Shown here: positions 24,300-47,616 of the stretch, one piece after another
Numbering within the stretch: the first letter of the stretch is position 1
How the letters are laid out: every line of letters begins with the position of its first letter
From: Ferroplasma acidiphilum
GTDB taxonomy: Archaea > Thermoplasmatota > Thermoplasmata > Thermoplasmatales > Thermoplasmataceae
Direction: 5' to 3'
DNA length: 64,000 nucleotides
NCBI RefSeq assembly: GCF_002078355.1
Contig: NZ_CP015363.1
Span: 496,001-560,000, forward strand
Program-made: the position numbers and the translations under genes
The notes under the pieces: model-generated
Database searches by the model: none
What the model was told of the DNA's origin: nothing
What the model saw: the letters and a program-made list of their open reading frames with translations, nothing else

Positions 24300-24490
24300 T
24301 CGTACCGGATTATTAATATGATAAAGGTATTTTATGGTTTCTATATAGTAAATAATCGTCCATTAAATTATTTACTATTAAATATTTCATGTTTGAAATC
24401 CCGTAAATTTCATATTTCAAAATTTGTATTATCCGGAAAAATTTACTTATTTCGGCAATTGGCTAAAATTAATTTCCGTATTCATACAAA

Positions 24491-24498
24491 AATTTATA
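24491..24498 (+). promoter_or_regulatory. TATA-like box for the 2-oxoacid oxidoreductase genes
   Basis: aatttata, 24-31 nt before the ATG at 24522. It supports that start rather than the in-frame ATG at 24318. Confidence 0.55.
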
Positions 24499-24521
24499 CG
24501 GCACTACTAAATACTAAAACC

Positions 24522-26270
24522 ATGGAAGAAATAATTGTCAGAATAGGAGGAGCGGCAGGAGATGGTGTACAATCCGCCGGTTTAACTTTAGAAAAAACTT
24601 TTTCAAGAAGTGGTTTATACATAAGCACGTATAATTACTATCAAAGCCTTATCAGGGGCGGCGAAAGCTGGTACCAGGTAAGGGCTTCTGATGAAAAAGT
24701 AAGGAACCAGGGAAGCGGCCTGGATGTTCTGGTTGCTTTAAATGCCGATGCACTTGAAAGGCATACAAATAGGAATATAAACGAAGGCGGAGCATCTCCC
24801 CTGAACGGGATAGCAATATATGACCCGGGAACCATACACAATTTTAAAAAATACGATGGGATAACCTATTGCCCGGTACCAATGAGAGATATTGCACTGA
24901 AATTTGATGCAAATCCATTGTTGAAAAACACAGTTGCACTGGGAGCTGTTATTGCATCTCTTGGTTTGGATTTTAACGTATTTTCAGGTGTAATTGAAAA
25001 AGTTTTCAACAAAAAAGGAAAACTTGTAGAATCAAATATAAACGCGGCAAAAGAGGGATATGAATACTATCTCCAGAATTATAAAGTTTACAGAAAACTA
25101 AAAACATCTAATAAAAAGTTATACACAATAGGCGGTGGAGATGCAGCCGCACTTGGGGCTATCAATGCAGGAATGCAAATGTATTTTGCATACCCTATGA
25201 CACCAGCATCATCTTTCCTCCAGTTTGTTGCAACCCATGGCAAAAAATACCATGTGTTTTTGAAACTTACAGAGGATGAAATTAGCGCTATAAATGCAGC
25301 AATAGGTGCAAACTATGCTGGAGTAAGGGCCGCAACAGGATCATCAGGAGGCGGGTTCGCACTTATGACTGAAGGTGTTGGGCTTTCAGCAATGACCGAA
25401 GTTCCACTGGTTATATATGAAGCACAGAGGCCAGGCCCATCAACCGGGCTTCCAACAAAGACTGAACAGGGAGATCTCAACCAGGTGCTTGGTGCCGGAC
25501 AGGGAGACATGCCAAGAATAGTGCTCGCACCGGGAACAGTTAAAGAAGCATTTGACCTCACAAAGGAGGCTTTCAACCTTGCTGAGAGATTCCAGCTTCC
25601 TGTATTTGTTGTTACCGATTTATATCTGGCTGAACATGACGAAACAGTAGATCTAGACCTTTCATATGAAATGGACAGGGGACTTCTAGCAGATGCCAGT
25701 GAAGCTGATTATAAAAGATATGAATATACAGAAAACGGCATTTCCAAGAGGGCATTTCCGGGGCAGCCAGGGTTAATGCATAACGAGGATTCCGATGAGC
25801 ATAATGAATACGGCGCAGTTGTTAGCGATGCAATAACAGACCCGACACAGAGAAAGCTCTCCATGGAAAAGAGAATGAAAAAGCTGAATTTATATATAAA
25901 AGAAATGCCACCGACACCTACATATAAAATGGAAGATGCAGAATATGTGGTTATCCAGTGGGGATCTACAAAGGGTGCAGTTGAAGAGGCTATAGACTGC
26001 ATGAGGAAAAATGGTACAAAAATAGGTGCCATAGAAATAACACACATATTCCCCATGAATCATGATATAAAGAAACTGCTTGCAGGAAAAAAGAAAATAA
26101 TAGTTGTTGAAAACAATTATTCCGGGCAGCTAAATGGGCTGATAAGGAAAGAATTCCTTGTAGATACCCAGTTCCTGGGAAAATACGATGGCGAGGCTTT
26201 CTTCCCTGCCGATCTGGCATTGTCACTGGAAGAAATGATATTTGGCAAAAAAATAAAAGTGGAGGAATAA
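24522..26270 (+). CDS. 2-oxoacid:ferredoxin oxidoreductase, fused gamma-alpha subunit
   Basis: Large subunit of the two-subunit enzyme that converts 2-oxoacids plus CoA to acyl-CoA and CO2 while reducing ferredoxin. The gamma domain is N-terminal (VRIGGAAGDGVQSAGL, residues 4-19), and the alpha domain begins about residue 200 with GGGDAAALGAINAGMQ. The YPMTPASSFLQF motif (about 222-233) is the YPxTP signature of these archaeal enzymes. At 582 residues it is slightly shorter than the 610-640 residues common in Sulfolobus. The ATG at 24522 begins the conserved domain. The start of the beta subunit follows after 2 nt. Confidence 0.94.
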   Translation: MEEIIVRIGGAAGDGVQSAGLTLEKTFSRSGLYISTYNYYQSLIRGGESWYQVRASDEKVRNQGSGLDVLVALNADALERHTNRNINEGGASPLNGIAIYDPGTIHNFKKYDGITYCPVPMRDIALKFDANPLLKNTVALGAVIASLGLDFNVFSGVIEKVFNKKGKLVESNINAAKEGYEYYLQNYKVYRKLKTSNKKLYTIGGGDAAALGAINAGMQMYFAYPMTPASSFLQFVATHGKKYHVFLKLTEDEISAINAAIGANYAGVRAATGSSGGGFALMTEGVGLSAMTEVPLVIYEAQRPGPSTGLPTKTEQGDLNQVLGAGQGDMPRIVLAPGTVKEAFDLTKEAFNLAERFQLPVFVVTDLYLAEHDETVDLDLSYEMDRGLLADASEADYKRYEYTENGISKRAFPGQPGLMHNEDSDEHNEYGAVVSDAITDPTQRKLSMEKRMKKLNLYIKEMPPTPTYKMEDAEYVVIQWGSTKGAVEEAIDCMRKNGTKIGAIEITHIFPMNHDIKKLLAGKKKIIVVENNYSGQLNGLIRKEFLVDTQFLGKYDGEAFFPADLALSLEEMIFGKKIKVEE

Positions 26271-26272
26271 AT

Positions 26273-27130
26273 ATGATACCTGTAACTGAATACAAAGGAA
26301 AAGTAGCACCTGATTGGTGCCCTGGATGCGGGAACTTCTCGCAATTGAGAGCAATTACAATGGCACTGTCGGAGCTTGATATCAAACCCGAAAATACCGT
26401 TATTTCATCCGGCATAGGATGTTCTAGCAATATGCCCGAGTTTATAAATACCTATGGTTTCCATGGGTTGCACGGGCGTTCACTTCCAGTAGCTGAAGGT
26501 ATAAAATGGGCCAATAAAAATCTAACCGTTATCGCATATGGTGGAGACGGCGATGGATTTTTCGAAGGTTCGCAGCACTTTTATCATGCTGCAAAAAGAA
26601 ACGTAAATATGACATACATGGTATCAGATAACCAGGTATTTGGATTAACAACAGGGCAGGCATCGCCAACAACCCCTATAGGAAGAATTACAAAGAGTAC
26701 CCCTGATGGGAATATTGAGCCCCCATTCAATCCGCTACATTATGCATTATCAGCAGGTGCAACATTTGTAGCCCGTGGACTTTCCGGCAATATTAAACAG
26801 CTGGCGGAATTAACAAAGGCAGCTATACAGCATAAGGGTTTCTCATTTATAGATGTGTTCAGCCCCTGTGTTACATATAATAAGGTGGAAGGGTACGAAT
26901 TCTTCAGAAAGACAACATACGAACTGAAGGATAACAATAGAAAGGATTTCTACGAAGCGTTCAAGCATGCATCGGAATGGGGCGAAGAAGCCAATTCTAT
27001 ACCTATAGGCATATTATATGACGTAGATGCACCAGTTTACGAAGATGTTGATGAAACCTTAAAGGAATACAATTTGAAGGATACTGCTCCGTATAAGCTT
27101 ACGGAAGAAGATCTTGAAGAATTCTATTAA
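26273..27130 (+). CDS. 2-oxoacid:ferredoxin oxidoreductase, beta subunit
   Basis: Thiamine diphosphate and [4Fe-4S] binding subunit, 285 residues. Cysteines in WCPGCGNF (C15, C18), GIGCSS and FSPCVTYN probably hold the single cluster. The diphosphate site is GGDGDGFFEGSQHF followed by DNQVFGLTTGQASPTTP (about 85-130). A Shine-Dalgarno sequence ggagg lies within the last codons of the alpha gene, 8 nt before the ATG. With the fused gamma-alpha subunit it forms the complete enzyme. Substrate preference (pyruvate or 2-oxoglutarate) cannot be read from sequence alone. Confidence 0.94.
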   Translation: MIPVTEYKGKVAPDWCPGCGNFSQLRAITMALSELDIKPENTVISSGIGCSSNMPEFINTYGFHGLHGRSLPVAEGIKWANKNLTVIAYGGDGDGFFEGSQHFYHAAKRNVNMTYMVSDNQVFGLTTGQASPTTPIGRITKSTPDGNIEPPFNPLHYALSAGATFVARGLSGNIKQLAELTKAAIQHKGFSFIDVFSPCVTYNKVEGYEFFRKTTYELKDNNRKDFYEAFKHASEWGEEANSIPIGILYDVDAPVYEDVDETLKEYNLKDTAPYKLTEEDLEEFY

Positions 27131-35728: not shown

Positions 35729-37474
35729 TCATGAGAATGAGGCTATTATAATGACCAGAATAAACGCTATTATCATATAGATAATATAATATGATATTGA
35801 ACTGTTCATAATTTTATAGGCTACAAGCCGGGCGAATTTTCTATACGATTTTGCTATATTTATCATTACAAGCCAGAAAATATCCACAGTTTCTACGCCA
35901 TCTTCGCTGGTATATGATGTCCTGAGCACCCTTTTAAGTATGAGCCTTATATTGTTGGAATAGTTAAATGAGTTAAAATACTCATTATGTTCTATTCCTC
36001 CATTCCATCTTTTAGCAACCCTCACACGTGGCTTCCCGAACACGAGGTAAACTATCAGGGAAAATAATAGAAGGAATATAAATATGTAAAGCGGTGTTAT
36101 AAGCCCGAAATCGGCTGGCCCGAAACGCGATTCAATCATTAATCCTTTGAAAACCAGTACAGATGGTATTCCGGATATGTATTCATTTCCGATCAACAGG
36201 AATGATACAGCGAAAAGAAAGACAAGGATTAATCCCGTAGCAAGTATTGTGTAATTCTCAAGATTCTTTCCGGATGTTTTTTTGTGGTTATCTGTAAAGT
36301 AAAACACTTTCAGCATGGCTGCTGTGGCAAAACCCTCTCCCATAGCTATAAGGGAGCCTGCTATTATGGATGTTATGCCCAATGGGCCATAGAGGTAAGC
36401 CCCCATGAAGAAAGATTCCAGTATCATCCAGGTACCCAGCCCACCTAATGAAGGGAACAACCCGGACAGGGAAGAAAGTGCAAAAAACTTTCCGATCTGG
36501 TTTATTGTGCTTTTCTCGCCATTAACAGCACTGAAATATTCTACCCCGGTATGGCCGACAGTTATAAACAAACCGGTTTTGGCTATTGAATGTGCCATGG
36601 CAAAGATAGCTATGGATATGAGTATAAATTCCCTTAACACACTGTTGTCTACAGCTACAAATAAACCTATTGTTGCCATCAGGGCACCGTTATTTTCTAT
36701 GGTGCTGAAACCGCCTAAGGACTTCATATTTTCCGATATATAAGCATATAATGCTCCGAATAGGACAGATATGACCCCTATTATTATAAATATAATTCCT
36801 ATGTCTATTGAAACTACAGAAAGCAATGCAATTTTTACTATGCCATATACACCCATTAACGTCATTGTAGCACTGAATATTGCTGAAGTATTTGCCGGGG
36901 CGCTCCCGTGTGCAATGGGCAGCCATTCACTGATCATGAATGGGGTTAAACCCATTTTTGACATTGCACCTATGGCAAATATAAGCAATACTGTGTCGTT
37001 GGTAAGTTTTGAAAAGTCTAAAGTGCCGGTATAAACATATGAAATCACAGCAGCTGTAATTATTAAAACTGTGCTGATTTCAGAGAAAAACATGAATATA
37101 TAAGCTTCCATATCATTCTTTTTGTTTACAGCTACTGTAACATATGCAGGAATAGACATGATTTCCCAGCCTGTTATGAATAAAAGGTAATTTGGGGAAT
37201 AAAGTATAAGCATCATTCCAGCTATTGTCAATATGAATAATGGTGCCAGCCACCTGCCATACTTCTTTGAATATGATATGGAAAAAACTGAGGCTATTAT
37301 CCACACGATTGCAGCAATAAGATAAAAGTATGTTATATAGTCATAAATCCTGAACGTGAATAAAAAGAACATTGCCGATGCTATGGCAGTGAGCAAATAT
37401 CCGGCTGTCCTGTACTTTATGGAAATCAGGACCGATAAAAATACAAGGATTAACGGTAAATAGTACAGTATCAT
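35729..37474 (-). CDS. Proton/cation-translocating subunit, HyfB/NuoL-like
   Basis: A 581-residue antiporter-like membrane subunit with about 14-16 transmembrane helices. Its core (GWEIMSIPAYVTVA, SKMGLTPFMISEWLPIAHGSAPANTSAIFSATMTLMGVYG in pieces) matches the Proton_antipo_M family, including the Lys-bearing helix and the His-containing HGSAPAN motif. A C-terminal segment with charged loops precedes the last helix. Last gene in the six-gene membrane complex operon; its start overlaps the preceding stop by 4 nt. It would couple electron transfer to ion pumping. Confidence 0.9.
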   Translation of the reverse strand: MILYYLPLILVFLSVLISIKYRTAGYLLTAIASAMFFLFTFRIYDYITYFYLIAAIVWIIASVFSISYSKKYGRWLAPLFILTIAGMMLILYSPNYLLFITGWEIMSIPAYVTVAVNKKNDMEAYIFMFFSEISTVLIITAAVISYVYTGTLDFSKLTNDTVLLIFAIGAMSKMGLTPFMISEWLPIAHGSAPANTSAIFSATMTLMGVYGIVKIALLSVVSIDIGIIFIIIGVISVLFGALYAYISENMKSLGGFSTIENNGALMATIGLFVAVDNSVLREFILISIAIFAMAHSIAKTGLFITVGHTGVEYFSAVNGEKSTINQIGKFFALSSLSGLFPSLGGLGTWMILESFFMGAYLYGPLGITSIIAGSLIAMGEGFATAAMLKVFYFTDNHKKTSGKNLENYTILATGLILVFLFAVSFLLIGNEYISGIPSVLVFKGLMIESRFGPADFGLITPLYIFIFLLLFSLIVYLVFGKPRVRVAKRWNGGIEHNEYFNSFNYSNNIRLILKRVLRTSYTSEDGVETVDIFWLVMINIAKSYRKFARLVAYKIMNSSISYYIIYMIIAFILVIIIASFS

Positions 37475-38070
37475 CTTTTACCCCTCGCCTTTATTATCGC
37501 GTTTATTATAGAAGCAGGTGTGGGTGGGCATCCTGCAACTTCTATATCATATTTATCCATTGCCCTGCTGCCAATAATTCCTCCGGAGAGTGCACATGCC
37601 CCTATTCCTATGACTATTTTAGGGGAAGGCATAGCATCATAAGCCTCCTTTAAAACAGCTTCCATGCCATCTGTGTACACTCCCATAACAACAAGTGCAT
37701 CAGCATGCCTCGGTGTATTTGACATAAAAATCTTAAATCTGTTTGTATCATACTGCGGGGAAAATAATGTTGTAAACTCAACATTGCAGGCTCCACATGT
37801 ACCGGAATCTATAGGATATAAATACAGGGATTTTTCAAATATGTGTGGTGTTTCCCTATTAACTGTGAAAGTTGTCTGTTTTCCTGTGGGTTTTAGATCA
37901 CATTCCCTGCAGAATATACATCTGTTCATGTCCCATTTCCCATTCTCCAGGGCATCTGTAGGGCAATCATAATCGCTCTTCCCATCAAGGAACGATGGCT
38001 GTTCAACCCTATAGCCCTCAAGCTCTTCCGTCTTTATTCTATTTTTTACCCCCTTGAGGAACCAGTTCAT
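37471..38070 (-). CDS. Small iron-sulfur subunit, ferredoxin-like plus HyfI/NuoB-like
   Basis: A 199-residue electron-transfer subunit. The N-terminal part has a ferredoxin-type cysteine set (CPTDAL near residue 36 and CIFCREC near 51-57) for one [4Fe-4S] cluster. The rest is NuoB/HycG-like, with GTCGACNVE (about 92-100), GIGACALSGG (about 151-160) and GCPPTP (about 179-184) holding the proximal cluster. The two parts correspond to separate HyfH- and HyfI-type subunits in other complexes. All proximal-cluster cysteines are kept, so electron transfer should work. Starts overlap both neighbours by 4 nt. Confidence 0.9.
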   Translation of the reverse strand: MNWFLKGVKNRIKTEELEGYRVEQPSFLDGKSDYDCPTDALENGKWDMNRCIFCRECDLKPTGKQTTFTVNRETPHIFEKSLYLYPIDSGTCGACNVEFTTLFSPQYDTNRFKIFMSNTPRHADALVVMGVYTDGMEAVLKEAYDAMPSPKIVIGIGACALSGGIIGSRAMDKYDIEVAGCPPTPASIINAIIKARGKR

Positions 38071-39221
38071 ATAAAATTCACCTCCAGTTCAGAAATCCAT
38101 ATGCCAAAACTTTCCCACACAAAGAAGAAATCTGTGAATATATTGTTATTTTTCAAAGCTTCCCTGAACAGCCTTAAATTAAGGTATGAAGGCGAAACCA
38201 TCTGGATATCATTTAATTTCCCATTTTCTATATTTACATAATAAAAAATATCGCCTGCAGGGGATTCTATACGGGCAGACCCCTTCCCTGAACCTGTTAA
38301 TTCATTTTTTGTCCGTGTTTTAATATTCTTAACGCCATATGAATCTATAATATTTATCGCTTCAAATACCTCTTCTGATCTTACAACTAACCGGGAGAAC
38401 GAGTCTGCTCCAGATTCTGTTACCGGTGTAAAATTTCTATAATCCAGCGATTTTGAATCTTTTCTTGCATCAAATTTAAATCCGGCTGCCCTGGCGGCTG
38501 GCCCTGTTGAATTCTCATTTTTAACGATTCCATTTTCCTGGATCCTATCAAGGAATATCTTGGAGGATAACAATCCATCATAAATATCACGGAACTGTTT
38601 TTCAATGGCATTTAATTTTATTGTTGAAAAATCTCCTGATACTGTTCCAAAACCATTAACAGAAAAAAAGTATCTATGGCCGAATGCCCTGGATATAATC
38701 CGTGCTACCTCTTCCCTGAGATATAGGAGCTGTTTTTCAGGAACAGCAAATCCAGCTGATTCGCACATGCCCTTTATAACGTCTATATTTGACCTTATGC
38801 GCTCCAGTTCAAGTTCCACTATTCTCATGTCATTTAATTCAGAATTTTCGATGCCCAGTGCCTCTTCTACTGCCAGAATGTATCCTATGCTATTGGATGC
38901 GGCATGGAATCCATTTATCCTCTCAACTTTAAGCAATGCACGTGAAACCGGGTCTCCGAGAATTTTTAAATCGCGCTTTTTGTATTCAGGATGTATTATC
39001 ACATCCCTTATTGTTTCCCCTGGAGTAAGCAGGCTGAAATTTACTGATTCCCTGAGCCCTCCTGCCGATGGACCATAATTAAAATAGATTTCCCCTGGAT
39101 TTTTATCCGCAAATTGGTCTGTGTTTTCAACTGCCGGAGCTATTGAAGAGGCATATATGTCGTAGTTTTTGCTCCTTCCTATATAACGCCCTGAACTTTC
39201 TCCAAACTTATAATATTGCAT
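38067..39221 (-). CDS. Large subunit, hydrogenase-like but lacking Ni-site cysteines
   Basis: Homologue of HycE/HyfG/EchE and NuoC-D, 384 residues from the ATG at 39221, which overlaps the previous gene by 14 nt. Where group 4 hydrogenases have ERxCGxCxxxHS, this protein reads ERINGFHAASNS, so both Ni-ligating cysteines are replaced (Asn, His). The C-terminal DPCxxC is also missing; the protein ends near SFGIWISELEVNF. Only one cysteine remains in the protein. It cannot form a [NiFe] site and should be a hydrogenase-related subunit, perhaps reducing a quinone or another acceptor. Confidence 0.88.
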   Translation of the reverse strand: MQYYKFGESSGRYIGRSKNYDIYASSIAPAVENTDQFADKNPGEIYFNYGPSAGGLRESVNFSLLTPGETIRDVIIHPEYKKRDLKILGDPVSRALLKVERINGFHAASNSIGYILAVEEALGIENSELNDMRIVELELERIRSNIDVIKGMCESAGFAVPEKQLLYLREEVARIISRAFGHRYFFSVNGFGTVSGDFSTIKLNAIEKQFRDIYDGLLSSKIFLDRIQENGIVKNENSTGPAARAAGFKFDARKDSKSLDYRNFTPVTESGADSFSRLVVRSEEVFEAINIIDSYGVKNIKTRTKNELTGSGKGSARIESPAGDIFYYVNIENGKLNDIQMVSPSYLNLRLFREALKNNNIFTDFFFVWESFGIWISELEVNFI

Positions 39222-40533
39222 GATACACCACCAGAAATACCACTCCAATAAATATTGACAATATGGCGGCTATGAGTGGCAAGGCCGTATTAATTCCAGA
39301 CTGGCTGTACTCAGATTTTCCCCTGAAAATCATTTTTGAAACATTAAAATTAATTGATACAAATGCCAGGAATAATGATAAAACTATTATGACAAACTGG
39401 GCATAGAAGTGGATTGTAAACACGGAATACAGTATGAGGAACTCACCGAAGAACGTTCCGAAGGGAGGAGTTCCGGTTACTGCAAAGGATGATAAAAGCA
39501 TGGAAGCTGCACTGGATCTGTTCCTTATTAATCCTGATACGCCATCGATTGATTTTGTTCCAGACATTTCATATACATTTCCGGATGAATAGAAAGCCCC
39601 CGCTTTGCCAAAACTATGGGCAAGCAGCAGGAGAAGTGAACCTATAAGCCCGGTTATTGTAAAAGTACTGAAACCTATCAACGCTATATTCATATTTTCC
39701 ATTGTAGAATAGGCAAACATCCTCTTGTAATTTTTCTGGTATCCAAGGAATATAGCTGCAAACAGTACCGATATTGTTCCAGCCCATACAAAGAGTTCCC
39801 TCATGGGAAATATTTCATAAATCCTGTATAATACATAAAGAGCAACGGGCAACAGCACACCTGAAAACATTGCACTGACAGGTGCCGGGGCTTCGCTATG
39901 GGCATCGGGAAGCCATGTATGTACCGGAAATACGCCTACTTTTGTACCGAACCCAACGAGGGCTATTGCAACTGCAAGCCTTACAGCTATTGTATCCTTT
40001 GCCCCATAGGCTAATATGGTTGTAATTGTAAGCGTTCCAAATGAATAATAAATAAGTATTACAGATATAAACGCAAATGTGACGCCTGCGGATACAATAA
40101 TAATATATCTCCATGTGGCTTCAAGTGAAATATCTGATTTTTCAGTGATAAGAAGCAATGCAGAGGATATTGTTGTTGTCTCTATCCCCACCCACATAAA
40201 TCCGTAATTATTTACCATGAGTGCAAATTCCATTGCAACATAAAAGAATCCCATAAGCATGTAATAAACGTTTTCTGAAATCCCTTTATTCTTTATGTTA
40301 TGCACATATTTCACGGAATATATCAGGGACATAAGATATACTGAACTTACCATTAAAATGAATATATATGTGATATGGTCTATAAAGAAGAATCCAGATG
40401 GAGCCATATTAAAGTACAATGAAATCAGCAATACCATCTCTATGATTGCACCTATTATGCTTGCCTCCTTTATCTTTTTAAAGTAAGCCATAGATATAAG
40501 CGGTATTGCCAGTATAAGAATTTCATAAATCAT
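39208..40533 (-). CDS. Proton/cation-translocating subunit, HyfF/NuoN-like
   Basis: A 441-residue antiporter-like subunit with about 13 membrane helices. The conserved core is WVGIETTTISSALLL with its helix Glu, then KVGVFPVHTWLPDAHSEAPAPVSAMFSG in pieces, and LLLLAHSFGKAGAFYSSG. These match Proton_antipo_M subunits of complex I and group 4 hydrogenases. Second ion-pumping subunit in the operon. It begins within the end of the HyfE-like gene (4-nt overlap). Confidence 0.92.
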   Translation of the reverse strand: MIYEILILAIPLISMAYFKKIKEASIIGAIIEMVLLISLYFNMAPSGFFFIDHITYIFILMVSSVYLMSLIYSVKYVHNIKNKGISENVYYMLMGFFYVAMEFALMVNNYGFMWVGIETTTISSALLLITEKSDISLEATWRYIIIVSAGVTFAFISVILIYYSFGTLTITTILAYGAKDTIAVRLAVAIALVGFGTKVGVFPVHTWLPDAHSEAPAPVSAMFSGVLLPVALYVLYRIYEIFPMRELFVWAGTISVLFAAIFLGYQKNYKRMFAYSTMENMNIALIGFSTFTITGLIGSLLLLLAHSFGKAGAFYSSGNVYEMSGTKSIDGVSGLIRNRSSAASMLLSSFAVTGTPPFGTFFGEFLILYSVFTIHFYAQFVIIVLSLFLAFVSINFNVSKMIFRGKSEYSQSGINTALPLIAAILSIFIGVVFLVVYHAIL

Positions 40534-41171
40534 CCTCTCAACTCCTCCACAGGCTTATGCTCTGTTTTTTCAATGCTAATTATGGAAAATATAACAACAA
40601 GTACCAGCACATCAAGAAATACGCTGCTCTCAATTATAATTGGAACCGGCAGTATGAATGTACCGAGAAGTATCAGGGAATTTTCCTCTTCAATGTATCC
40701 AAGTATCTGGGCCACCGTCCTTCTCCTTGAAGCTATTACGAAGAGCCCCTGGAAGAAAAGTAGAAGAGGAAACAGGATTATATCACTGTCAGGAAATATG
40801 TGCGACCTTATATGTATAAATGATATGGAATAGACAATGAATATTGAAATTACTATAAATGCCAGGTCAATCAGCAAATAATATGTAGTAGGCAGCTTTG
40901 ATTCGTAGAGATAATTCTTGTTCTTCGGTATCTTTGACACCAGGAAATATGTAACAAGCACAGTCCTGAGCAGAATAACCAGTGCACCCAGTATGAAGAA
41001 TGTATACTGTCTCAATACAATTCCAAGGAGGAATGCAATTAATGCAATAATAAATGACTGGAATGCCTGGGTTAATACCATGGACCTCAGGTATTTATTG
41101 GACTGGATATAAAATCCGGTGACAACAATCAGTGCAGCAAGGAGATAAATAAATGTGTATATTATATTCAT
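40530..41171 (-). CDS. Membrane subunit, HyfE-like
   Basis: A 213-residue all-helical protein with about six membrane segments and a weak NuoK-like core (FIIALIAFLLGIVLRQYTFFILGALVILLRTVL in pieces), as in HyfE of hydrogenase 4. The conserved FEExNxLILLGTF-type element appears as GYIEEENSLILLGTFI (about residues 155-170). Overlaps both neighbours by 4 nt. It belongs to the ion-channel part of the complex. Confidence 0.85.
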   Translation of the reverse strand: MNIIYTFIYLLAALIVVTGFYIQSNKYLRSMVLTQAFQSFIIALIAFLLGIVLRQYTFFILGALVILLRTVLVTYFLVSKIPKNKNYLYESKLPTTYYLLIDLAFIVISIFIVYSISFIHIRSHIFPDSDIILFPLLLFFQGLFVIASRRRTVAQILGYIEEENSLILLGTFILPVPIIIESSVFLDVLVLVVIFSIISIEKTEHKPVEELRG

Positions 41172-42118
41172 GTGATCACCTCTGTGAGTATCAGGAACAG
41201 AATGGAAAAGGTGAATGCAACAGCAAGGTAATCAATAACCCTGAATAGCCTGAGTTTTGCCAGTGATGTATCTATTACAAGCACGATTACTATTAATAAT
41301 AGCCATTTCCCAATCATGGTAAGGGCATTTAAAAAGAATAGGGGAAATGTGTTAAACATCCCCCATGGTATCAGGAATACATTTATCAGCACAGAGCCCA
41401 GCAGGTAGGTTTTCATATAGGAAGACCATTTATTTATCGCCAGTGCTTTTCCGCTGTATTCATAATCAATTCCAGAATCGATCATTCCCATTTCCTGGTT
41501 TCCTTCGCTCTGTGTTGGCATTTTTCCAAATTCATAGAGGAAAACCATAAAGAATGCAAAGATTGCAAAAATATGTACCAGAGTGAGATTTGAAAGTGGA
41601 TGTGATATTAAATAATGGTTTGTTGTATAGGGATTGTTTGTCCCGCTTATCAGTGCAACTGCAAAGAATACTGTTATTAATGTGCCCTCCCCGAAGAAAT
41701 TAAAGGACATGAGCCTCGATGCACCCATGGATGAGAAGTTGCTTCCGGAATCCAAAGTGCCTATAATTTTTACGAAAGCGGCAAGGGAAAATAATATGGC
41801 ACCGGCGAAAAAATCACCCGATGCAGTGAATATTATTGGCTCTGTCATAAATACGGGTATAATCAGTGCAATCAGGGAATATATACCAAAGGCAATATAT
41901 GGGGAATATAGAAAGAATCTGGAGGAATTTTCAGTAACTATAGTTTCCTTTTTAAGCAGCTTGAATAAATCATAATAGGGCTGAAATATGCTAGGGCCTT
42001 TTCTTGATTCAATATTGGCTTTTAATTTTTCAAATATACCAATTGCAAGTGGCGAAAATAACACAACGAATAGGTACTGCGATAGCGTCTCCATGATCAA
42101 TATTAACATATGTATCAC
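41168..42118 (-). CDS. Membrane anchor subunit, HyfC/NuoH-like
   Basis: A 316-residue subunit with about eight membrane helices that connects the peripheral arm to the ion pumps. The family motif ESRKGPSIFQPYYDLFKLLKKE (in pieces) lies at about residues 37-58, and the acidic loop EFGKMPTQSEGNQEMGMIDSG matches the NuoH/HyfC quinone or coupling-site loop. First gene of the operon. The start at 42118 is the longest; ATG codons at 42109 and 42094 are equally possible because the family starts vary. Confidence 0.92.
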   Translation of the reverse strand: MIHMLILIMETLSQYLFVVLFSPLAIGIFEKLKANIESRKGPSIFQPYYDLFKLLKKETIVTENSSRFFLYSPYIAFGIYSLIALIIPVFMTEPIIFTASGDFFAGAILFSLAAFVKIIGTLDSGSNFSSMGASRLMSFNFFGEGTLITVFFAVALISGTNNPYTTNHYLISHPLSNLTLVHIFAIFAFFMVFLYEFGKMPTQSEGNQEMGMIDSGIDYEYSGKALAINKWSSYMKTYLLGSVLINVFLIPWGMFNTFPLFFLNALTMIGKWLLLIVIVLVIDTSLAKLRLFRVIDYLAVAFTFSILFLILTEVIT

Positions 42119-42370: not shown

Positions 42371-45300
42371 ATGAAGTTTGCCGTACTTATAGGATGGAAC
42401 GGTTCCGTTATCCAGTCATTTTTACACGCAGGTGAGGAAACAGGCAATGAAATAAAAATAAAATATCCAAGGCTTGATCCTGTAGATAAGGAATTTATAG
42501 ACTTTGTTAGAGATGCCGATGCTGTATTCATCCATCATTTTTCCGGTGAAAATATTTACAGCAATATTCTTGAAGACATAGAAAGCGTCATTAAGGGGAA
42601 GAAGAATGTAATAGCCATTGACCCGATACTGAGCAATTATTCAACGGTGAGCAAATTTGTCGAAGAAAAAGTATCAAATTACTATTTCTACGGTGGCTAT
42701 GAAAATATTAAGAATATGGTATTATTCATTGAAAACACCATAACCCCCCGGCATTATGAAGAGCCGGTTGAGATGCCATTTTCCGGAATCTATGAATATG
42801 GAAATACTGAGTTTCCTAAGAAGGTAGGAATATTATTTTACCGGACAGCATGGGTAGACAGGGACACAAAAATAATACAGTACATTATAGATAATTTAAA
42901 TAATAATAAAATTTCTGCAATACCGGTGTTCACAAACGGCTTTGGTGACCGGTCAAGGGGAATAATGAGTGCTGAAGAATGCATAAATACATATTTCTAC
43001 AGCGATGGGAAGCCAGTTGTTGATGCAGTTATAAATCTATTATCGTTCTCCCTAATCAAGAAGGAGGATAAAAGTACACTGATGAATCTGGGTGTTCCTG
43101 TATTTCAGGGTTTAATATATTATTATAAAGAGGAAAAGGAATGGCTTGATTCTTCCGGGCTGGACGTTGTATCAACTATTATGAGCGCAATGCTTCCTGA
43201 AATGGATGGGACTATTGAGCCTGTACTTATCGGCGTTATTAAGAAAATTTATGACAGGGGCACCATATACAGGGAACTCGTCCCCGTCAAGGAACAGGCA
43301 CAATACATGATTAACAGGATCCGGAAATGGGTCAACCTGCGCTATATGAAAAATTCTGAGAAAAAGATAGCTATTATACTGCATTCAGGTTCATCTTTCA
43401 AGGATCTGGAAGCCAATATCGGTACAGCAACAGGGCTTGACACACTTAATTCAGTATCCAGCATAATGTCATTACTGCGTGAGAATGGATATAATATGGA
43501 TTACCTGCCGGAGAACGGCGAATCTCTTATTAAAACAATAATGGAGAAAAAGGCAATACCTGAAGGAAAGTGGACGCCTGTTGAAGAAATAATAAATAAG
43601 GGCGGATCCGTCTATGGAATGCCAGTAAAAGAGTATATGAAATTTTTCCGCGAATTGCCAGAGGATTCGCAGGATATGATAATCAAGCGCTGGGGGGAAC
43701 TTAACACTGAAAGGGACTACATGCTCCTTAACGGTACCATGCATATTCCCGGGATCATATCAGGGAATATTTTTATAGGCATACAGCCAAAGAGAATTAC
43801 ATTTGCTGACAATGATAATAGCATCAGGTCAATACATGACTCCCTGACGCCGGTTACCCATTACTGGCTTGCATTTTATAAATGGATCCAGGAAATTTTC
43901 AGGGCAGATGCAATAATACATGTTGGAACACATGGAACACTGGAATTCACGCCGGGGAAAGGCCTCGGGCTATCACCATCAGATTTTCCGGAGATTTCTA
44001 TCGGTGAGATTCCAAATCTATACCTTTATTCCACAAATGTTCCCGGAGAAGGGATAATAGCTAAAAGGAGAAGCTATGCAGTCCTTCTTGATTATATTAC
44101 TCCGCCAACAGCCTACGATGATGTTCCCGATGATATAAAGGAGCTAGAAGACCTCATAGATGATTATGAGGAAACAGAAAAGGCAGAGAATACATCAAGG
44201 GAAACCATGATCCTTGAGAAAATCCAGAAGATTTCAGATAAAATTGGCTTATCCATAGATTTTAAGGATGCACATAAAGCTACGCATGAAATTGAACACC
44301 GCCTCAATCTCTTCAAGGATTCCATAATCAGCAAGGGATTATATATCTACGGAAAAGATATTGACAAAGATGATTTAAAGGATTACGTTACAACTGCCAC
44401 ACGTTTTGACGAGTCATTATCCAAAAAATATGGCAAGGAAGAAGCTGAAAATCAAATAATGGCCTATTTAAATGAGGGTACACCAATTCCCGAACTCGAA
44501 ACCGGAATAATAGAAAAACTAAAGTTTTCGCCTGAAAACGAAAAGAACAATCTCCTGATGGCATTGAATGGCAAATTTATAGAACCCGGAGTTTCCGGGT
44601 CGCTCACCAGGGGAAGGTATGATGTATTGCCGTCAGGCAGGAATTTTTATGCCGTTGATCCGTTCAAGATACCCAGCCATTCAGCATGGCAGGTTGGTGT
44701 AATACTGGCAAACAAACTCATTGAAAATGAATACAAAAAAAATAATAAATTTCCGGAAACCATTGGATTTGTTCTCTGGTCTACCGATGCATACAGGTCA
44801 GATGGGGAATTGATATCCCAGATACTCTATACAATTGGTGTAGAACCTGTGTGGCAGGAAGGGACAAAGAAGGTAAAGGATGTTAAGCCAATACCCCTGG
44901 ATGTCCTTAAAAGGCCCAGAATCGACGTTGTGGTAGAATCCAGTGGCATTGTAAGGGACAATCTTTTCAATATAATAGAATTAATAGATCTGGCAATAAA
45001 AAAGGTATCTGAACTGGATGAAGATGATGATGTAAATTTCATTGTCAAGCACCATAAGAAATACGGGCACCTTGATAGAATATTTTCTTCGAAGCCCGGT
45101 TCCTACGGTTCCGGAGTTAACAATGCAATAGAATCATCAAAATGGGAAAATGAGAATGACCTTGCGGATGTATTTACGGAATGGATGGGATATTCATATG
45201 GCAAAAACAACTTTGGAAGAGAATCAAAGGATGAGCTGCTTTCAATCTCTAAGGATATAGAAACTATAATACATAAAAGGGAAATCGATGAGATAGACAT

Positions 45301-45781
45301 AAACGACGATTCGTGCAATTATTCCTATGCAGGCGGCTTCTATCTTATGGCGAAGAAAAGCGGCTCAAAGCCATCGCTTATGTTTGAAGACACATTTAAT
45401 CCCAATAAGCCACAGGTACGGACAATGAAAGAGGAAATAGAACGTACTGCTATTGGGAAATTGTTGAATGAAAAATGGATTGAAGCACAGAAAAATTTCG
45501 GCTATAGGGGCGCTACAGAAATGCTGAAAAAGATCGAGCATCTATACGGCTGGGGCGCTACTACCGGAATGGTGAACGACAATATTTTCAATAATATAGC
45601 TAATAAATTTGTACTTGACAGGGAAATGAAGGAGTGGTTCAAAAAAGAAAATCCATGGGCCCTTTCAGAAATTACCTCAAGAATGATAGAGGCATATAAG
45701 CGGGATATATGGCATGCCAGCGATAGCATGAAGGAACAGCTTGAGGAAGAGTACATGGAAATAGAGGGTGAAAACGAATGA
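42371..45781 (+). CDS. cobN: CobN/BchH-type cobaltochelatase large subunit
   Basis: Large chelatase subunit (1136 residues) that inserts cobalt, or possibly another metal, into a tetrapyrrole. The signature HVGTHGTLEFTPGKGLGLS lies at about residues 518-536, and the later SSKPGSYGSGVNNAIE with WMGYSYGK (about 903-940) also matches CobN. It works with an AAA+ ATPase; the next gene supplies both ChlI- and ChlD-like parts in one chain, and its start overlaps the cobN stop by 4 nt. The tetrapyrrole biosynthesis genes are not in the window. Aerobic-type cobaltochelatases use hydrogenobyrinate diamide, but in archaea the substrate is less clear. Confidence 0.93.
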   Translation: MKFAVLIGWNGSVIQSFLHAGEETGNEIKIKYPRLDPVDKEFIDFVRDADAVFIHHFSGENIYSNILEDIESVIKGKKNVIAIDPILSNYSTVSKFVEEKVSNYYFYGGYENIKNMVLFIENTITPRHYEEPVEMPFSGIYEYGNTEFPKKVGILFYRTAWVDRDTKIIQYIIDNLNNNKISAIPVFTNGFGDRSRGIMSAEECINTYFYSDGKPVVDAVINLLSFSLIKKEDKSTLMNLGVPVFQGLIYYYKEEKEWLDSSGLDVVSTIMSAMLPEMDGTIEPVLIGVIKKIYDRGTIYRELVPVKEQAQYMINRIRKWVNLRYMKNSEKKIAIILHSGSSFKDLEANIGTATGLDTLNSVSSIMSLLRENGYNMDYLPENGESLIKTIMEKKAIPEGKWTPVEEIINKGGSVYGMPVKEYMKFFRELPEDSQDMIIKRWGELNTERDYMLLNGTMHIPGIISGNIFIGIQPKRITFADNDNSIRSIHDSLTPVTHYWLAFYKWIQEIFRADAIIHVGTHGTLEFTPGKGLGLSPSDFPEISIGEIPNLYLYSTNVPGEGIIAKRRSYAVLLDYITPPTAYDDVPDDIKELEDLIDDYEETEKAENTSRETMILEKIQKISDKIGLSIDFKDAHKATHEIEHRLNLFKDSIISKGLYIYGKDIDKDDLKDYVTTATRFDESLSKKYGKEEAENQIMAYLNEGTPIPELETGIIEKLKFSPENEKNNLLMALNGKFIEPGVSGSLTRGRYDVLPSGRNFYAVDPFKIPSHSAWQVGVILANKLIENEYKKNNKFPETIGFVLWSTDAYRSDGELISQILYTIGVEPVWQEGTKKVKDVKPIPLDVLKRPRIDVVVESSGIVRDNLFNIIELIDLAIKKVSELDEDDDVNFIVKHHKKYGHLDRIFSSKPGSYGSGVNNAIESSKWENENDLADVFTEWMGYSYGKNNFGRESKDELLSISKDIETIIHKREIDEIDINDDSCNYSYAGGFYLMAKKSGSKPSLMFEDTFNPNKPQVRTMKEEIERTAIGKLLNEKWIEAQKNFGYRGATEMLKKIEHLYGWGATTGMVNDNIFNNIANKFVLDREMKEWFKKENPWALSEITSRMIEAYKRDIWHASDSMKEQLEEEYMEIEGENE

Positions 45782-47616
45782 GGACATATCCATTTCCTTT
45801 TTCTGCCATAGTCGATAACGAAGACATAAAACTCGGGCTTATTGTAAATGCAATAGATAGCAATATTGGCGGTTTACTCATAACAGGCCCAAAGGGTATA
45901 GCCAAATCAACAATGGTGCGTGCACTGTCATCCATACTTCCGGAAGTTAAGGCGGTCAAGGGATGCAGGTTCCACTGCGACCCTGATGGCGATCTGTGTG
46001 ACGAATGCCTGGAAGCCAAGAAAAAAGGAGAACTTAAAACTGAAAATATGAAGATAAGGATAATAAATCTGCCCAATAGCACCACCCTTGACCGTGTTGT
46101 CGGGTCACTTGACATATCCCATGCTATAAAAGGCGAATCTGTTCTCCGTGAAGGTTTGATAGGCGAAGCAAACAGGGGAATATTGTATATAGATGAGGTA
46201 AACCTCCTTGATGATTCTATCGTGGATTCAATACTTGATTCAGCTGCTTCCGGGATAAATATTGTTGAAAGGGAGGGGGTATCTTACACACACCCTGCCA
46301 GATTCATCCTTGTAGGCACAATGAATCCTGAAGAGGGAGAACTCAGGCCACAATTGCTTGACCGTTTTGGCATCTCTGTTGAAGGAAAAATGCCAGAATC
46401 TCCGGAAACACTTCTTGATATAGCTGATCGGGTTGAAGAATTTGACAGTGATAGGGAAAGCTTTATAGAAAAGTTCAGGGCTCCGGATCGTGAAATTCAG
46501 TTAAAGATAGTTAACGCAAGAAAACTGTTGCCTTATGTGAAGATAAAAAGGGAATACAGGGTTTTTATAGCAGATTTAGTGATCAAAAATTCCCTGAGCA
46601 ACAGGGCCATGATAAGCACTGTAAAAACTGCAAAGGCAATAGCTGCATATTATGGAAGAACAGAAGTCAATGAAGATGATCTGAAGAAGGCACTGCAATT
46701 TGCCCTTAACCACAGGATGAAGGAAAAAGGGAAGAGCAGGCCAGATTATAATTTTAATGACCCGGGCAATAATGGAGATAACACAGATGATAACCAGGAA
46801 CAGGATTCTGCCAGCAATCAGTCCACTCCCACGGATCAAAAGAATCATGAAGCAGGGAGAAATGGAGAGGAGAAGCAGCAGAAGCAGAAGGAAAACAGGG
46901 AAAGCACAGTCCATAATCTTGAAGTAAATCCCGGCAAAAAAATAGAAACAAAAAAATCAGGGCGTAGCGGAAGAGCAAAGCAATTCAGGCATAGAGGCAG
47001 GAAATCAGGAACCTACATGGATATAAGGCATTCACTTCTGAATACATGGAGTTCGGGCTTCAGAATGATAAATGAGAAAACCATTGTTATGAAAGATTCC
47101 TACTCAAAAGGCTCAATTCCATTTATAATAGCCATAGACTCGAGCAGGTCAATGAATTTCAGTTCAAGAATTGAAATCGCCAGAGAATTTTCAGATATGC
47201 TGCTCAAAAAATTGTATATTATGAGAAGCAGAGTTGCACTTATAAAATTTGCAGGCGAGCGATCGGAAGTATTAATGAATTTTTCAAGGAATTTTACGGC
47301 GTTGAAAAACATTATCGATAATATTTCCAGTGGCGGAAAGACCCCACTGTACGATGCCCTTGAGAATATATATAAATTATCTTCGTATGAAAAATTAAAA
47401 ACGGTATCACTTCTGGTAACGGACGGAAGGGGAAATGTGTTTCCAGGAAATGCAAGGGAAAACCTGATGGAAATATCTAAGAAAATTAAGCCATTGTCAA
47501 GTATGTACATAATCGATAAAAATGACAATAAATTTCTTCCAACATATAACGGTATAATATCATCATACGCAGGGGCAAAAATAATAAATAATATAGAAAA
47601 TATAAAAATAAATTAA
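45778..47616 (+). CDS. Chelatase ATPase with fused ChlI-like AAA+ and ChlD-like VWA domains
   Basis: A 612-residue motor subunit for CobN. The AAA+ domain covers about residues 1-315: Walker A GPKGIAKST (about 38-46), a Cys-rich loop CRFHCDPDGDLCDEC and Walker B RGILYIDEVNLLDD. A low-complexity linker (about 320-410) is acidic and Asn/Gln-rich, then Lys/Arg-rich. The C-terminal von Willebrand A domain has an intact metal site: AIDSSRSM (DxSxS), GGKTPLYDAL and LLVTDGRG. Bacterial chelatases often split these parts into two proteins; the fusion is common in archaea. Confidence 0.93.
   Translation: MRTYPFPFSAIVDNEDIKLGLIVNAIDSNIGGLLITGPKGIAKSTMVRALSSILPEVKAVKGCRFHCDPDGDLCDECLEAKKKGELKTENMKIRIINLPNSTTLDRVVGSLDISHAIKGESVLREGLIGEANRGILYIDEVNLLDDSIVDSILDSAASGINIVEREGVSYTHPARFILVGTMNPEEGELRPQLLDRFGISVEGKMPESPETLLDIADRVEEFDSDRESFIEKFRAPDREIQLKIVNARKLLPYVKIKREYRVFIADLVIKNSLSNRAMISTVKTAKAIAAYYGRTEVNEDDLKKALQFALNHRMKEKGKSRPDYNFNDPGNNGDNTDDNQEQDSASNQSTPTDQKNHEAGRNGEEKQQKQKENRESTVHNLEVNPGKKIETKKSGRSGRAKQFRHRGRKSGTYMDIRHSLLNTWSSGFRMINEKTIVMKDSYSKGSIPFIIAIDSSRSMNFSSRIEIAREFSDMLLKKLYIMRSRVALIKFAGERSEVLMNFSRNFTALKNIIDNISSGGKTPLYDALENIYKLSSYEKLKTVSLLVTDGRGNVFPGNARENLMEISKKIKPLSSMYIIDKNDNKFLPTYNGIISSYAGAKIINNIENIKIN

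Follow-up and report, generated by a model that had tools for sequence, protein, structure and literature searches.

A six-gene Ehr-type membrane complex of Ferroplasma acidiphilum without a NiFe site: a proposed ferredoxin-driven proton pump

We analysed a window of 64,000 nt from Ferroplasma acidiphilum (NZ_CP015363.1, positions 496,001 to 560,000; genome of 1,826,943 bases), and all coordinates below are those of the window. Six genes on its minus strand, at 35729–42118, encode HyfC, HyfE, HyfF, a large subunit, a small subunit and HyfB, in that order. We propose, with a probability of about 70%, that they specify an energy-converting hydrogenase-related (Ehr) complex, descended from a group 4 hydrogenase but without its NiFe site, which would pump protons at the expense of reduced ferredoxin and produce no H2. 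Adjacent genes overlap by 4–14 bp and therefore form one operon. The same genes occur in the same order at 84 related loci, so that the arrangement is not due to chance; Metallosphaera and Marsarchaeota have a rotated order. Within the phylum sample, the operon is carried by 24 of 28 genomes of family f1, 4 of 5 of family f2 (Aciduliprofundum-type) and five of family f4, and the matches examined from other families are Ehr-type, NiFe or Nuo. The coordinates, strand, gene order and motifs given in the initial annotation of this region were all reproduced.

The large subunit lacks all four Ni ligands. ERINGFHA stands in place of the N-terminal Ni motif ERxCGxC, and SFGIWISE occupies the region of the C-terminal motif DPCxxC, where ES[FLYH]G is a signature of the clade. 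A two-cysteine motif at either position is found in none of 93 relatives, six of which have a single residual cysteine (ERYCG or ER[IV]CS); the 17 group 4 NiFe control subunits have both motifs. The loss of the Ni motifs reported in the initial annotation is thus borne out. That annotation would have yielded to Ni-ligand cysteines elsewhere in the subunit, and there are none: the 384 residues include one cysteine. The AlphaFold2 model of the subunit (pLDDT 92.6) resembles HycE and MbhL, with TM scores of about 0.8. A new metal site formed by N103, H107, E370 and E378 was considered and is not supported, because H107 is not conserved outside part of family f1. On some branches (L055, L056, L131, L133, L134, L137, L139 and L141) a lone cysteine has been left at, or has returned to, the first Ni-ligand position. 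In two genomes the large-subunit gene is split into two open reading frames (L048:9304-10492, minus strand, genome G177; L052:9214-10424, plus strand, genome G204), which may reflect a frameshift, an assembly error or decay; G204 also carries a second, intact copy of the operon (L051).

Searches of the F. acidiphilum genome that detected their positive controls found no HypD, HypC or PF00374 hydrogenase. HypD is also absent from the 24 family f1 and five family f4 operon-carrying genomes tested; it is present in three of the four family f2 carriers, and those genomes own other, intact NiFe hydrogenases. Neither the ligands of a group 4 NiFe hydrogenase (RxCGxC and DPCxxC) nor the HypC and HypD proteins that accompany one are therefore present, and on sequence grounds H2 chemistry is excluded. 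We see next to no chance that this is a genuine NiFe hydrogenase with displaced ligands, as the NCBIfam name "hydrogenase 4" would have it: with one cysteine in the large subunit and no HypC, HypD or other NiFe enzyme in the genome, the sequence already refutes it. HyfB and HyfF nevertheless score above the cut-offs of the "hydrogenase 4 subunit B/F" equivalogs NF005046 and NF005042, and automatic annotation will therefore name this Ni-free complex a hydrogenase. The labels "hydrogenase 4" and "formate hydrogenlyase" in carrier genomes are misleading, and no H2 metabolism should be inferred from them.

The second of these labels reflects a reading of the genes as part of a formate hydrogenlyase or of a complex of formate dehydrogenase with Ehr. 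Yelton et al. (2013; PMC3750248) note both a formate hydrogen lyase cluster and a formate dehydrogenase in Fer1, and a formate dehydrogenase–Ehr complex has been proposed for Margulisbacteria (PMC6349859), so that Ehr can be linked to this enzyme in other lineages. We consider the reading very unlikely here, since no formate dehydrogenase or HycB-like gene lies in the operon or recurs beside it at about 109 loci, and since the H2-evolving half is impossible without Ni. More generally, no donor or acceptor gene is a conserved neighbour at these loci, the most frequent non-core family (an ABC ATPase) being found at 18 of them; judged by its gene neighbourhoods, the operon is self-contained, with no conserved partner gene.

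The predicted electron wire of the small subunit is conserved. Eight cluster cysteines (C36, C51, C54, C57; C92, C95, C159, C181) are conserved across 51 sequences. The latter four are the ligands of the proximal cluster, all of them kept, as had been noted from the start, and the CxxC motif aligns without a gap to MbhJ. The ferredoxin-like N-terminal extension that had also been described is present; however, it is only half a ferredoxin, corresponding to the second half of a two-cluster ferredoxin whose first-cluster ligands are missing, and it should hold one [4Fe-4S] cluster. In alignment A2, C36, C51 and C57 are invariant and C54 is conserved in at least 90% of the sequences. In the Ehr-type relatives L069–L071 this position is occupied by a full two-cluster ferredoxin, and the half-ferredoxin therefore looks like a reduction. 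The AlphaFold2 model (pLDDT 91.4) is confident across the half-ferredoxin part. One Ehr-type small subunit (L068:10419-10940, plus strand, genome G007, family f17) has neither the proximal-cluster cysteines (SGSDNSTEIE, GDDACGTG and GNPP are found instead) nor a ferredoxin extension; its gene adjoins one for a Ni-less large subunit, giving a complex with no visible redox site.

In the membrane arm, HyfF keeps the glutamate of transmembrane helix (TM) 5, the lysine of TM7, the lysine of the middle helix and the glutamate of TM12, while HyfB keeps the TM5 glutamate, the TM7 lysine and a lysine in the TM10 region. The conserved Glu-Asn of HyfE is shared with E. coli HyfE. Proton pumping by HyfF and HyfB is therefore likely, judging by these residues. 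With both cluster sites and most channel residues conserved, and with no Ni ligands or Hyp proteins, electron transfer coupled to pumping without H2, which the initial annotation had suggested, fits well and is supported as an interpretation.

The best sequence matches of the large and small subunits are in the membrane-bound hydrogenase (MBH) of Pyrococcus (6cfw) and in E. coli formate hydrogenlyase FHL-1 (7z0s), which are also among the best fold matches. Unlike these, the six-gene complex has no NiFe site, Hyp maturation, separate ferredoxin-like subunit (MbhN/HycF) or 30-kDa part. The 30-kDa (NuoC) domain, PF00329, was detected in HycE and was not detected in the large subunits of the clade that were tested. 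The original description of the gene order as that of group 4 hydrogenases needs qualification: the order is related to that of E. coli hyf, but HyfB comes last, and HyfA, HyfD, HyfH and the NuoC domain are missing.

We then consider the relation to Ehr complexes, which have been described in PMC6349859 (Margulisbacteria), PMC4378227 (Sulfobacillus) and PMC7304191. As in these, and as in L069–L071 from Thermoplasmatota, group 4-derived large and small subunits without Ni/Fe-coordinating cysteines are combined with a membrane arm of the HyfB/C/E/F type that includes antiporter-like subunits. In a tree of 70 rows, the six-gene clade forms one branch (support 100/100), the Ehr-type rows form another (98/90), and NiFe group 4 and Nuo fall together. 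Rooted on other NiFe hydrogenases, the tree places Ehr and the six-gene clade in a single clade (100/98), apart from NiFe group 4 and complex I; the Ehr rows here are from Thermoplasmatota only, were labelled Ehr by motif and include no bacterial Ehr. The kinship with Ehr, which had initially been a guess, thus takes the form of a sister placement. Most simply, the Ni site would have been lost once on the Ehr/six-gene side and separately in complex I. The six-gene complex differs from Ehr in its gene order (C-E-F-L-S-B versus B-C-E-F-L-S), in the small-subunit fusion, which is a half-ferredoxin rather than a full two-cluster ferredoxin, in lacking the 30-kDa domain that L070 and L071 have, and in its C-terminal signature (TDFxFxxES[FLYH]G versus NKSxNLSYxGND). 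It is an Ehr-type complex of a structurally distinct form.

Acidophiles predominate among the named carriers: Ferroplasma, Acidiplasma, Cuniculiplasma, E-plasma, Aciduliprofundum, Metallosphaera, Sulfolobales Acd1 and Marsarchaeota G2. Several of them are iron oxidisers. The Sulfolobales and Marsarchaeota sequences fall inside the diversity of Thermoplasmatota, which suggests that the operon has been transferred between archaeal lineages. It was also seen on contigs binned unexpectedly, in metagenome-assembled genomes (MAGs) of Micrarchaeota (L105, L136), Bacteroidales (L139, L141) and Thermococcus (L143, L144, L148, L150, L151); these may represent mis-binning or transfer.

As predicted from the alignments, the reaction site fits neither NiFe, quinone nor sulfane chemistry, the three that have been characterised in the superfamily, and for this reason its residues do not reveal the acceptor. 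The quinone or sulfur compound that the initial annotation considered possible is still a guess. Complex I has the quinone ligands H38 and Y87 and, in NuoB, a tandem CC; in the six-gene complex H38 aligns with R57 and Y87 with G104, and the small subunit has CxxC. Complex I, represented in this genome by a Nuo cluster of its own, has homologous core subunits, but it keeps these residues, has more subunits and lost Ni separately on the tree. What has been kept is Glu58, the equivalent of MbhL Glu21, which relays protons to the NiFe site of MBH (PMC7684303).

The third chemistry is that of the Pyrococcus membrane-bound sulfane reductase (MBS; 6u8y), another ferredoxin-driven derivative of MBH that is not a hydrogenase. 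In MBS the CxxC motif is shortened by three residues, one iron is free and two large-subunit cysteines are kept (PMC7684303). We asked whether the six-gene complex could likewise be a sulfane or polysulfide reductase in which the proximal cluster itself reduces sulfur compounds. The two complexes share a superfamily, several carriers come from habitats rich in sulfur, and MBS is also without H38 and Y87 (PMC7684303). However, the proximal cluster of MBS has three cysteines, whereas all four are conserved here and the CxxC has its full length; MBS keeps two large-subunit cysteines, whereas no Ni-site cysteine is left in the large subunit here; and MBS has 13 subunits with an Mrp-type Na+ module, which is absent here, the operon having no further genes. 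We therefore regard an MBS-like reaction as quite unlikely.

The subunits, cluster ligands, absent Ni site, channel residues and phylogeny are read from the sequences; for the electron donor, the direction and the pumping we infer the following. Reduced ferredoxin, from 2-oxoacid:ferredoxin oxidoreductases, would donate electrons to the half-ferredoxin [4Fe-4S] cluster of the small subunit, from which they would pass to the proximal cluster. An oxidant in the former active-site cavity, between the large subunit, the small subunit and HyfC, would be reduced, with Glu58 helping with protons, and the reduction would drive proton export through HyfF and HyfB. The NADH module is absent from the complex. 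In F. acidiphilum, POR and KOR generate reduced ferredoxin (PMC5473848). Subunits of such a 2-oxoacid:ferredoxin oxidoreductase, a source of reduced ferredoxin, are encoded at 24318–27130 (plus strand), about 8.6 kb from the operon and outside it; they fit the POR genes FAD_0567-0568 of strain Y-T (PMC5473848). The likeliest oxidant in Ferroplasma would be the quinone pool, bound in a manner unlike that in complex I. We favor it because futalosine menaquinone genes are present in the genome and the 2-oxoacid oxidoreductases make reduced ferredoxin, although as an identification of the acceptor this is a guess, at somewhat short of even odds.

Several observations weigh against the proposed model. 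The quinone ligands of complex I are absent, as described above. MqnA/D, MenD and heme-copper oxidase were not found in the four family f2 operon carriers, which makes it improbable that all members use quinone as their acceptor. The separate complex I-like Nuo cluster (G000:C1, about 574000) would make a second ferredoxin:quinone pump partly redundant. The SEW glutamate in TM12 of HyfB is replaced on the Ferroplasma-like branch. Finally, the complex has no reported activity, expression or structure, and neither the transcriptome paper on Acidiplasma nor the sulfur paper on a Ferroplasma-like organism mentions it. The co-occurrence of quinone pathways is informative for family f2 only: carriers in family f4 have a heme-copper oxidase, the searches turned up no known route to menaquinone, and every MenD match lies under the curated cut-off.

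The missing TM12 glutamate, together with the antiporter-like character of HyfB and HyfF, could also suggest that the complex is a relic without redox activity, or simply an antiporter of the Mrp type. This is highly improbable, given that the eight cluster cysteines are kept across very divergent members and that the operon is intact at 84 loci.

The direction in vivo could be reversed. The large proton gradient of acidophiles would then drive electrons uphill from quinol, or another carrier, to ferredoxin, supplying biosynthetic reactions that depend on ferredoxin while iron is oxidised. In principle every part could work backwards, and most named carriers are acidophiles, several of them oxidising iron. 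The acidophily is that of the named carriers, however, and the Aciduliprofundum-type carriers have neither an oxidase nor detectable menaquinone genes, which makes quinol-fed flow unlikely there. On balance we consider reverse operation unlikely. A broader proposal, which we find doubtful but slightly less so, is that these complexes constitute a distinct and mainly acidophile class of Ehr, with a minimal set of six subunits, a two-cluster wire and an unmatched reaction site, which may use the ready-made proton gradient for uphill ferredoxin reduction and has spread between Thermoplasmatota, Sulfolobales and Marsarchaeota.

Loss of the Ni motifs in these archaea is already published: the accessible text of Yelton et al. 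describes "putative group 4 hydrogenases" of the acid mine drainage plasmas without both Ni-binding motifs and possibly with another function (PMC3750248). The Fer1 ortholog in that work is the same gene, with a large subunit that is 100% identical; the same text neither assigns the genes a function nor describes their domain anatomy or any relation to Ehr. For Ehr in general, ion translocation driven by redox reactions without H2 is suspected and not demonstrated (PMC6349859). Ehr complexes are widespread, and we found no reaction reported for any of those in the six-gene subgroup. Nor did we find the half-ferredoxin fusion, the loss of NuoC or the clade of acidophiles described in the open-access literature, many Ehr papers being in subscription journals outside this search. 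Provisionally, then, the half-ferredoxin, the NuoC loss, the self-contained acidophile operon and the unmatched reaction site are new beyond the searchable literature, and no earlier work appears to have established the compact build or the distribution among acidophiles. If the proposed ferredoxin-driven pump is correct, two iron–sulfur clusters are enough for a pump of this superfamily, which can dispense with both Ni and a 30-kDa subunit. The reaction is directly testable because the complex is small, self-contained and present in cultivated Ferroplasma, Acidiplasma and Metallosphaera.

The features are collected in Table 1. HyfE is recognised more weakly than the other five subunits by Pfam and NCBIfam. 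For the large subunit, ATG 39221 is almost certainly the true start, giving 384 residues, rather than TTG 39248, since relatives such as L040 show the same 14-bp overlap with HyfF.

Table 1. Genes and sequence features of the six-gene operon (window coordinates)
Feature	Position	Strand	Evidence
HyfC/NuoH-like membrane anchor, 316 aa	41168..42118	-	Pfam NADHdh 5.6e-33; opens the operon at 84 loci
HyfE (NuoK-like) small membrane subunit, 213 aa	40530..41171	-	NCBIfam hydrogenase 4 membrane subunit 5e-10, under curated cut-off
HyfF antiporter-like subunit, putative proton channel, 441 aa	39208..40533	-	Pfam Proton_antipo_M 1.5e-47; NF005042 567 bits
HyfG/NuoD-like large subunit, 384 aa	38067..39221	-	Pfam Complex1_49kDa 8.1e-20; no PF00329
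Glu58, equivalent of MbhL Glu21	39048..39050	-	phmmer alignment to 6cfw_L; at least 90% of relatives (alignment A3)
ERINGFHA, residues 100-107, at position of ERxCGxC	38901..38924	-	Alignment with Cys-bearing group 4 NiFe subunits
WESFGIWISE, residues 369-378, at position of DPCxxC	38088..38117	-	Alignment
NuoB-like small subunit with fused one-cluster half-ferredoxin, 199 aa	37471..38070	-	Pfam Oxidored_q6 1.6e-21
Half-ferredoxin motif C36-P ... C51xxC54xxC57, one predicted [4Fe-4S]	37900..37965	-	Pattern in 96 of 105 small subunits
Proximal [4Fe-4S] ligands C92xxC95, C159, C181; hydrogenase-type CxxC spacing	37528..37797	-	Conservation in alignment A2
HyfB/NuoL-like antiporter-like subunit, 581 aa	35729..37474	-	Pfam Proton_antipo_M 3.6e-21; NF005046 642 bits

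Divergent from the operon, at 42371–47616 on the plus strand, lie CobN-like and ChlI/ChlD-like chelatase genes, a neighbourhood seen only in Ferroplasma-type genomes. Elsewhere in the window, a TnpB-like protein with a Cas12f1-like TNB domain (5.9e-22) is encoded at 842–1975 on the minus strand.

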